A stretch of DNA of 64,000 bases from Caldilineaceae bacterium. Its GTDB lineage: Bacteria; Chloroflexota; Anaerolineae; Caldilineales; Caldilineaceae. The stretch covers positions 124,001 through 188,000 of the forward strand of contig JALHQH010000015.1 in NCBI GenBank assembly GCA_022842065.1. The letters are read 5' to 3'. Position 1 is the first letter of the stretch; each line of letters begins with the position of its first letter. Shown here piece by piece: positions 12,573-13,580 of the stretch. Position numbers and translations under genes: made by a program. Below the pieces are notes generated by a model. The model did no database searches. It was given only the letters and a program-made list of their open reading frames with translations, and was not told where the DNA came from.

Positions 12573-12642
12573 AACATACACACTTTTCGTTTCGTACAGG
12601 CACGGTATACCGTGCCCGTACGAAACGAAAAGTGTGTATGTT
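12573..12642. repeat. 70-bp near-perfect palindrome upstream of the merB-like gene
   Basis: The 35-bp arms are centred on GTATAC (12605-12610) and have a single mismatch. The right arm ends 18 nt before ATG 12661, so it lies in the leader of the merB-like gene and could act as a terminator for sdhB or a leader hairpin (TTTTT follows at 12641-12645). Confidence 0.9.
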
Positions 12643-12660
12643 TTTAATGAGGTTAACTCA

Positions 12661-13377
12661 ATGTCCACCACACCTGCAACACCTGCTGATGACTTAATCT
12701 GGAGGGCGCGCACCTTTATCTATGAACACTTTGTCGCAACCGCCCGCGCCCCCCATGTCACACAGATCGCCGCGCACTTTGCCCTACCCCTAGCCGAAGC
12801 AGAAGGGATGCTCCACGCGCTACATGACCGCCACGCACTCTTTTTAGAGCCGGGGACAACCGAAATTCGCCTCGCCAATCCCTTCTCAGCGATTCCGACC
12901 GACTTTATAACCGAAGTGAACGGTCAACGTTACTGGGCTAACTGCGCGTGGGACTCGTTAGGAGTGATCGTTGCGGTGGGGGCAGGAGAAGGGATAGTTC
13001 ATGCTCAATGTGCTGGTGATGGGCTGCCCTTAACGGTGCGGGTGGAAAATGGGCAAGTGGTTGACAGCGGCGCGGTTGCCCATGTGCTTGTGCCTTTTCA
13101 ACATTGGTATGATGATCTGGTCTTCACCTGAGCGAATATTCAATACTTCCGGTCGGAAGCGAATTTTGCAGCATGGGTAGCTGCCCCCAATCACACCCGT
13201 GGTGAAGTGCTCTCCCTGCCCACGCTTTGGGCACTCTCACAAGCCTGGTACCATGACCGCCTTTCACCTGCCTATCGCAGCCGTACGGTGGCACAGGTAA
13301 CCGCAATCTTTCAGGCGCTGGGGTTGACTTCAGCTTTTTGGGCGTTGCAAGAGAGTGTGGAGATTCCACAGAAGTAA
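12661..13377 (+). CDS. Candidate selenocysteine-containing organomercurial (alkylmercury) lyase family protein, in-frame TGA at Sec157
   Basis: ATG 12661 follows GAGG at 12649-12652. Codons 1-156 encode an N-terminal helical domain, then the MerB-type core with YWANCAWD (C95, D98, matching E. coli MerB C96 and D99). TGA at 13129-13131 would end translation, but the same frame continues 81 more codons to TAA 13375-13377. That part matches the family C-terminus: IQYFRSEANFAAW, LPTLWALSQAWYHDRL, and ending near LGLTSAFW. Aligned with MerB (SFCC...FFAS), the TGA falls on catalytic Cys159. A hairpin with a GGTC loop starts 15 nt after the TGA (see 13129-13159). I infer Sec insertion. The alternative is a TGT/TGC-to-TGA nonsense mutation. 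MerB cleaves C-Hg bonds in the cytoplasm, but no mer operon is nearby, so the substrate is open. Confidence 0.7.
13129..13159 (+). promoter_or_regulatory. Putative bacterial SECIS element (UGA plus downstream stem-loop)
   Basis: TGA (13129-13131) is followed after 14 nt by CTTCC (13146-13150), loop GGTC (13151-13154) and GGAAG (13155-13159). UGA-to-loop distance is 19 nt; in E. coli fdhF it is 18 nt with the same GGUC loop, where SelB contacts the loop G and U. AAT (13142-13144) may pair with a downstream ATT to extend the stem beyond a small internal loop. Confidence 0.6.
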
Positions 13378-13524: not shown

Positions 13525-13580
13525 CATGAAAAATAGCCACAGAGAAACGCAGCTGCGTTTCTCTGTGGCTATTTTTCATG
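13525..13580. terminator. Bidirectional terminator, 56-bp perfect palindrome
   Basis: The palindrome is exact and its outer part is AAAAATAG / CTATTTTT, giving a T-tract on both strands. It lies between the convergent merB-like and rhaEW genes, as expected for a shared terminator. Confidence 0.85.

Follow-up and report, generated by a model that had tools for sequence, protein, structure and literature searches.

A MerB-family gene of a Caldilineaceae bacterium with a predicted selenocysteine codon at the position of catalytic Cys159

In a 64,000-nucleotide stretch of DNA from a Caldilineaceae bacterium (positions 124,001 to 188,000 of contig JALHQH010000015.1, assembly GCA_022842065.1; referred to as the window), the gene at 12661–13377 on the forward strand encodes a protein of the MerB (organomercurial lyase) family, in which a UGA codon occupies the column of the catalytic residue Cys159. 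This codon is very likely read as selenocysteine (Sec), aided by a conserved GGUC hairpin downstream of it; the predicted product comprises 238 residues, with Sec at position 157 (U157), and ends at a TAA stop codon. An earlier note on this DNA, made from its letters alone, had proposed a Sec at Cys159 of a MerB homologue, and this reading is now supported by the conservation of the TGA across phyla, the hairpin, the exchange between Sec and Cys in relatives and the Sec machinery of the relatives' genomes. Sec insertion in the window organism itself is a prediction from sequence comparison.

The in-frame TGA (13129–13131, forward strand) aligns with Cys159 of MerB in the crystal structures 3f2g and 5c17. 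In a phmmer search against the PDB, and again with a profile, residue 157 pairs with the C of ‘FCSHVHFF’ in 3f2g; because 3f2g is a C160S mutant and this C precedes the S, it corresponds to Cys159. The codons of C95 (12943–12945) and D98 (12952–12954), both on the forward strand, fall on the columns of MerB Cys96 and Asp99 in the PDB alignment, the numbering being shifted by one. The three assignments of the earlier note thus hold. In MerB, Cys96, Asp99 and Cys159 are the residues holding or serving the mercury, according to PMC4525700; in the window protein, the first two columns are filled by Cys and Asp, and the third is the UGA codon, the predicted Sec.

From the TGA, 81 codons run to the TAA in the frame of the gene, which would occur by chance with P about 0.04, so that openness alone is unimpressive. 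The match to the Pfam family PF03243 spans the TGA (75.2 bits, E 5.8e-21, residues 75–197; gathering cut-off 27 bits), and the predicted fold of the window protein is that of MerB, matching the MerB crystals 3f0o, 3f2f and 5c17. The likeness to MerB thus comprises the fold, C95 and D98 at Cys96 and Asp99, and a third catalytic residue in the same alignment column; the window protein differs in its predicted Sec for Cys159, in an identity of only ~20% and in roughly 30 C-terminal residues past the part aligned to MerB.

A protein scan of genome contigs yielded 35 loci (genomes G001–G035), which by their record titles fall in Chloroflexota, Gemmatimonadota, Acidobacteriota and a few other groups. 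Of these loci, 33 cover the UGA site; the contig of L032 ends before it, and the match of L035 breaks off before it in apparent assembly junk. TGA stands at codon 157 in all 33 covering loci (34 of 34 with the window), and the window gene, judged by these relatives, is not a pseudogene. A 31-row alignment (A2), from which the TGA-bearing L017, L018, L028 and L034 were omitted for their odd or missing ends, keeps Cys95, Asp98 and Cys or Sec at column 157 throughout. Past the TGA, F163, R164, W172, W196, Y197, R200, L222 and W227 are invariant in the same alignment, bearing out the family-like character that the earlier note had seen in the downstream frame. Relatives match across the TGA, and Cys stands in its place in P0017 and in six genomes lacking SelA. 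Among the best 120 of 275 protein homologues, 118 end in Thr, the residue directly before the UGA, which is where a gene caller taking this codon for a stop would end them; the remaining two show Cys (P0017) and Trp (P0010) at the site. A C-terminal search for further full-length relatives gave one match among 27 candidates, P0122, which has neither Cys95 nor Cys or Sec at 157 and is possibly a non-catalytic homologue. Two family members may be defective. The Sec-MerB copy L148 (genome G404) has a second TGA that matches no Cys column, and may be a damaged gene or contain a sequence error. L168 (G115), a fragment that has TGA at the site and for which no in-frame upstream part was found, is possibly broken.

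Downstream of the UGA, the window carries a hairpin resembling a bacterial Sec insertion sequence (SECIS), CTTCC-GGTC-GGAAG (13146–13159, forward strand), with a 5-bp stem and a GGTC loop (13151–13154) that begins 19 nucleotides after the UGA. In the fdhF SECIS of E. coli K-12 (L157) GGTC lies 18 nucleotides after the UGA, and both distances, already given in the earlier note, agree with the sequences, whereas the stem sequence and the gene of the E. coli element are unrelated to those of the window. Across 63 distinct UGA sites, the five stem pairs form in 63, 62, 62, 62 and 59 cases, and GGTC occupies the loop in 59. The codons of the hairpin are similarly constrained in 34 rows: all 34 Phe codons are TTC, all 32 Ser codons are TCG, and Arg is encoded by CGG 32 times and by AGG twice, where the background in the same genes is 42% TCG among Ser codons and 38% CGG among Arg codons. 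All five stem pairs form together in 31 of the 34 rows, as compared to 4096 of 17000 synonymous shuffles. By this codon comparison, the hairpin is kept beyond the needs of the protein sequence. In L107 the innermost pair is T-A for C-G with the GGTC loop kept, and L158 and L159 have the same letters, a two-sided change within one lineage. GGTC also occurs at the loop position in three MerB rows of the Cys type, namely L123 and, both from one and the same place, L085 and L113; GGTC alone is therefore not proof of Sec.

Sec machinery was searched for in the genomes of the 35 relatives. SelA and SelB are each over cut-off in 34 of 35, tRNA-Sec scores at least 53 bits in 31, and all three occur together in 30. 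Of 30 tRNA loci retrieved, ARAGORN reads 28 as tRNA-SeC(tca); matches of ~47 bits were excluded from the tRNA count, as the search passes its cut-off in 5 of 14 control genomes. A sharper comparison is offered by relatives with Cys at the site. MerB-family matches were found in 41 of 301 genomes of the phylum of G001 and in 30 of 150 of the phylum of G026; the catalytic codons were read from the DNA of nearly all MerB-family matches, where the family hidden Markov model (HMM) aligned, and a score above 110 bits with this HMM defined membership of the clade. Within the clade, SelA is present in 32 of 32 TGA genomes and in none of the six TGC (Cys) genomes (one-sided Fisher test, 3.6e-7; 0.002 and 0.0006 for the two phyla separately). 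In these counts, G056 with its two Cys copies enters once, G404 is kept as TGA, and G462 is scored as lacking SelA because it is not among the 115 SelA matches listed; G035, whose match breaks off before the site, and the G115 fragment (99 bits, with TGA and SelA) were left out. For the weak partial Pfam matches in G043, G202, G313 and G376, the DNA gave no family-HMM match, and likewise none for L151 (G419) and L152 (G376). None of the six Cys rows from the clade that were examined for the hairpin has GGTC at the loop position, and two of them have a complete stem. In a FastTree phylogeny of 98 sequences, a 66-member clade (support 0.93) contains 61 TGA forms, and two sets of Cys forms are nested in it, L126 with L137 and L150 being one and P0017 the other; by their position in the tree, they look like cases in which Sec was replaced by Cys. 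In L126 and L137, both Cys forms from genomes lacking SelA, Cys also replaces Asp99, creating a CxxC motif at 96–99.

Several observations weigh against the reading of the gene as a Sec-containing MerB. Among the TGA-form genomes, G028 has no SelA over cut-off, G008 has neither SelB over cut-off nor a strong tRNA-Sec, and a strong tRNA-Sec is also missing from G009, G018 and G032. SelA is common in the two phyla anyway, being over cut-off in 81 of the 101 genomes sampled from one and in 112 of the 150 from the other, for which reason its presence alone was rejected as evidence and replaced by the comparison of Cys and TGA genomes. The six Cys genomes form two tree clusters of three and thus represent few events, and one of these clusters, L097, L098 and L101, branches beside the 66-member Sec clade, not within it. 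The folding energy of the hairpin region is barely under that of synonymous shuffles (mean z -0.58; 22 of 34 negative); this signal being weak, folding energy was discarded as a proof of a SECIS, and position-specific conservation was used instead. Rfam at a permissive threshold returned no SECIS family, only five chance-level matches. As to mercury, the curated models for true MerB are missed widely (NF009710, 34.1 bits against a cut-off of 193; NF033555, 27.5 against 200), no mer gene (merA, merR, transport) is present among the six Pfam-tested neighbours, and just 2 of the 35 Sec-MerB genomes (G012 and G016), a set with many draft metagenome assemblies, have a MerA that passes its curated cut-off. 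The earlier designation as an organomercurial lyase homologue stands as far as the MerB family is concerned, through PF03243 and the fold, and fails at the NCBI cut-offs for true MerB; the enzymatic activity is a prediction. Because of the missed cut-offs, the lack of mer neighbours and the MerA count, the mercury role is the weakest step. MerB in the absence of MerA is described as puzzling in PMC8261052, on the view that MerB passes its Hg(II) on to MerA.

The predicted product would be a full-length lyase in which Cys95, Asp98 and Sec157 correspond to Cys96, Asp99 and Cys159 of MerB. If it works as MerB does, the metal of an organomercurial, or of another organometal, would be bound by the Cys95 thiolate and the Sec157 selenolate, and Asp98 would assist in delivering the proton for cleavage of the metal–carbon bond. 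A selenolate binds mercury more tightly than a thiolate and is deprotonated at lower pH. Both the metal–carbon cleavage and the substrate are extrapolated from MerB, and the protein is best described as a predicted lyase. A possible, though less probable, alternative is a real MerB-fold selenoprotein with a substrate that is not an organomercurial; it may act on another organometal or metalloid, as in the proposed SAO system, or bind metal with no bond cleavage. The MerA count, the six neighbours devoid of mer genes and the scores under the MerB cut-offs all point in this direction, as does the fact that SaoL is called a MerB-like organometallic lyase in a table of a review (PMC13188914); the invariance of Cys95, Asp98 and column 157, as in MerB, and the predicted MerB fold speak against it. 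Pfam assigns the three neighbours upstream to succinate dehydrogenase subunits and those downstream to an aldolase/short-chain dehydrogenase fusion and lactate-utilisation-type proteins; no SAO operon context was recognized by Pfam in these six neighbours, on which the SAO models themselves were not run. In a crude clustering of reading frames from 34 stretches, with frame calling that is rough at high GC, no neighbour family is widely shared, each being common to at most seven loci, mostly of one Gemmatimonadota group, which likewise fits a substrate other than an organomercurial.

That the UGA is a true stop, yielding a 156-residue protein followed by the relic of a nonsense mutation or by a sequencing error, is very improbable: UGA does end 15 of the 39 reading frames picked in the window, and gene callers stop at it in the great majority of the listed homologues, but residues of the downstream frame are invariant across phyla, the TGA recurs in every covering locus, and the Cys forms read on in genomes lacking SelA. 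Just as improbable is the decoding of the UGA as an ordinary residue (Trp, Cys or Gly) through a changed code or leaky termination, for which the Trp of P0010 could be cited (a protein record that may reflect a gene call under another code), since TGA commonly serves as a stop in the window, clade members from the six genomes lacking SelA have a Cys codon here, and neither the hairpin conservation nor the Sec machinery would be expected.

TGA occupies both the Cys96 and the Cys159 columns in the MerB relatives L104, L105 and L106 (all from G171), L107 (G046), L158 (G515) and L159 (G574), that is, in four genomes. The three G171 copies are paralogues: L105 and L106 share ~60% identity with L104 and ~75% between themselves. 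In L108, the closest other relative, with 50% identity to L104, Cys stands at the first of the two sites and TGA at the second. L107 reads YAAUAID and later DAFURNS. Among 400 genomes of the phylum of L107, two more double-TGA genes were found, those of G515 (68% identical) and G574 (60%), with TGA at the same places, and no further kin turned up in the classes of G046 and G171 (1 and 29 genomes). In L107, L158 and L159, the first TGA is followed by GCCCTT-CGTGC-AAGGGC in identical letters, and the second by a GGTC hairpin. Seventeen nucleotides past the first TGA, L104 and L106 have the letters for a six-pair stem; in L105 the search preferred another stem. SelA is present in G046 and G171. 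The two double-TGA groups sit on different branches of the 98-sequence tree, which does not contain L158 and L159. As in the window gene, the TGA of the Cys159 column in the double-TGA relatives has a GGTC hairpin after it; they differ from the window gene in the TGA at the Cys96 column, where the window protein has Cys. A further relative, the more classical MerB-like L109 (G101), has TGA at the Cys159 column with Cys directly after it, and the loop of its best hairpin is a different one, CGTGA, 24 nucleotides after the UGA.

A Sec-bearing MerB relative, SaoL, is already in print: a MerB-like alkylmercury lyase selenoprotein appears in tables of PMC13188914 and PMC9312934, and the table of the former names SaoL, with the motif CU, citing Haft and Gwadz 2023 and earlier work. 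In a scan with NCBIfam, the last position of the SaoL profile, 159, aligns with the Sec of L108, which suggests that the Sec of SaoL probably occupies the same column as that of the window protein. Both are MerB relatives, and SaoL is listed as a selenoprotein; the window protein differs in its motif (TU rather than CU), its full MerB length, its score of 30.6 bits with the SaoL model NF040728 against a cut-off of 140, and its neighbours. By score and context, it is not SaoL. No model of NCBIfam (June 2026) is above cut-off for the window protein or six relatives scanned. Set apart from SaoL by score and context, the window protein appears to belong to a separate, widespread, stand-alone Sec-MerB family, of which the double-Sec relatives are the most novel members.

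The breakdown of methylmercury is surveyed via merB, and proteins truncated at Sec would probably escape such screens; databases mostly list the Sec-MerB proteins as cut-off fragments. A merB survey of 2021 screened on Cys96, Asp99, Cys159 and Cys117 (PMC8261052), and the MerB HMM of a 2022 study was built on Cys96 and Cys159 (PMC9948709). The Sec family, found mainly in Chloroflexota, Gemmatimonadota and Acidobacteriota records and mostly lacking a MerA that passes its cut-off, enlarges the set of possible organometal degraders, and it bears on the question, raised in the 2021 paper, of MerB working without MerA. Sec decoding, if true, places selenium on the predicted mercury site of these proteins, and the natural Cys, single-Sec and double-Sec versions of one site would make the effect of selenium on carbon–mercury cleavage measurable. 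A broader proposal, for and against which the balance is about even, holds that MerB-type enzymes moved to selenium more than once, that two lineages became bis-selenolate enzymes, and that the window protein is a single-Sec member of a cross-phylum, MerA-free family, from which the metal may leave bound to selenium or thiol and unreduced, and which surveys based on Cys159 would have missed.

Some further features accompany the gene. A TGAGG (12648–12652, forward strand), 8 nucleotides before the ATG, is a possible ribosome-binding site. Two long, near-perfect inverted repeats without spacers flank the Sec-MerB gene on both sides: shortly before its start, one of two 35-nucleotide arms with 97% complementarity (12573–12642), and after its stop, a perfect, terminator-like one of two 28-nucleotide arms (13525–13580).
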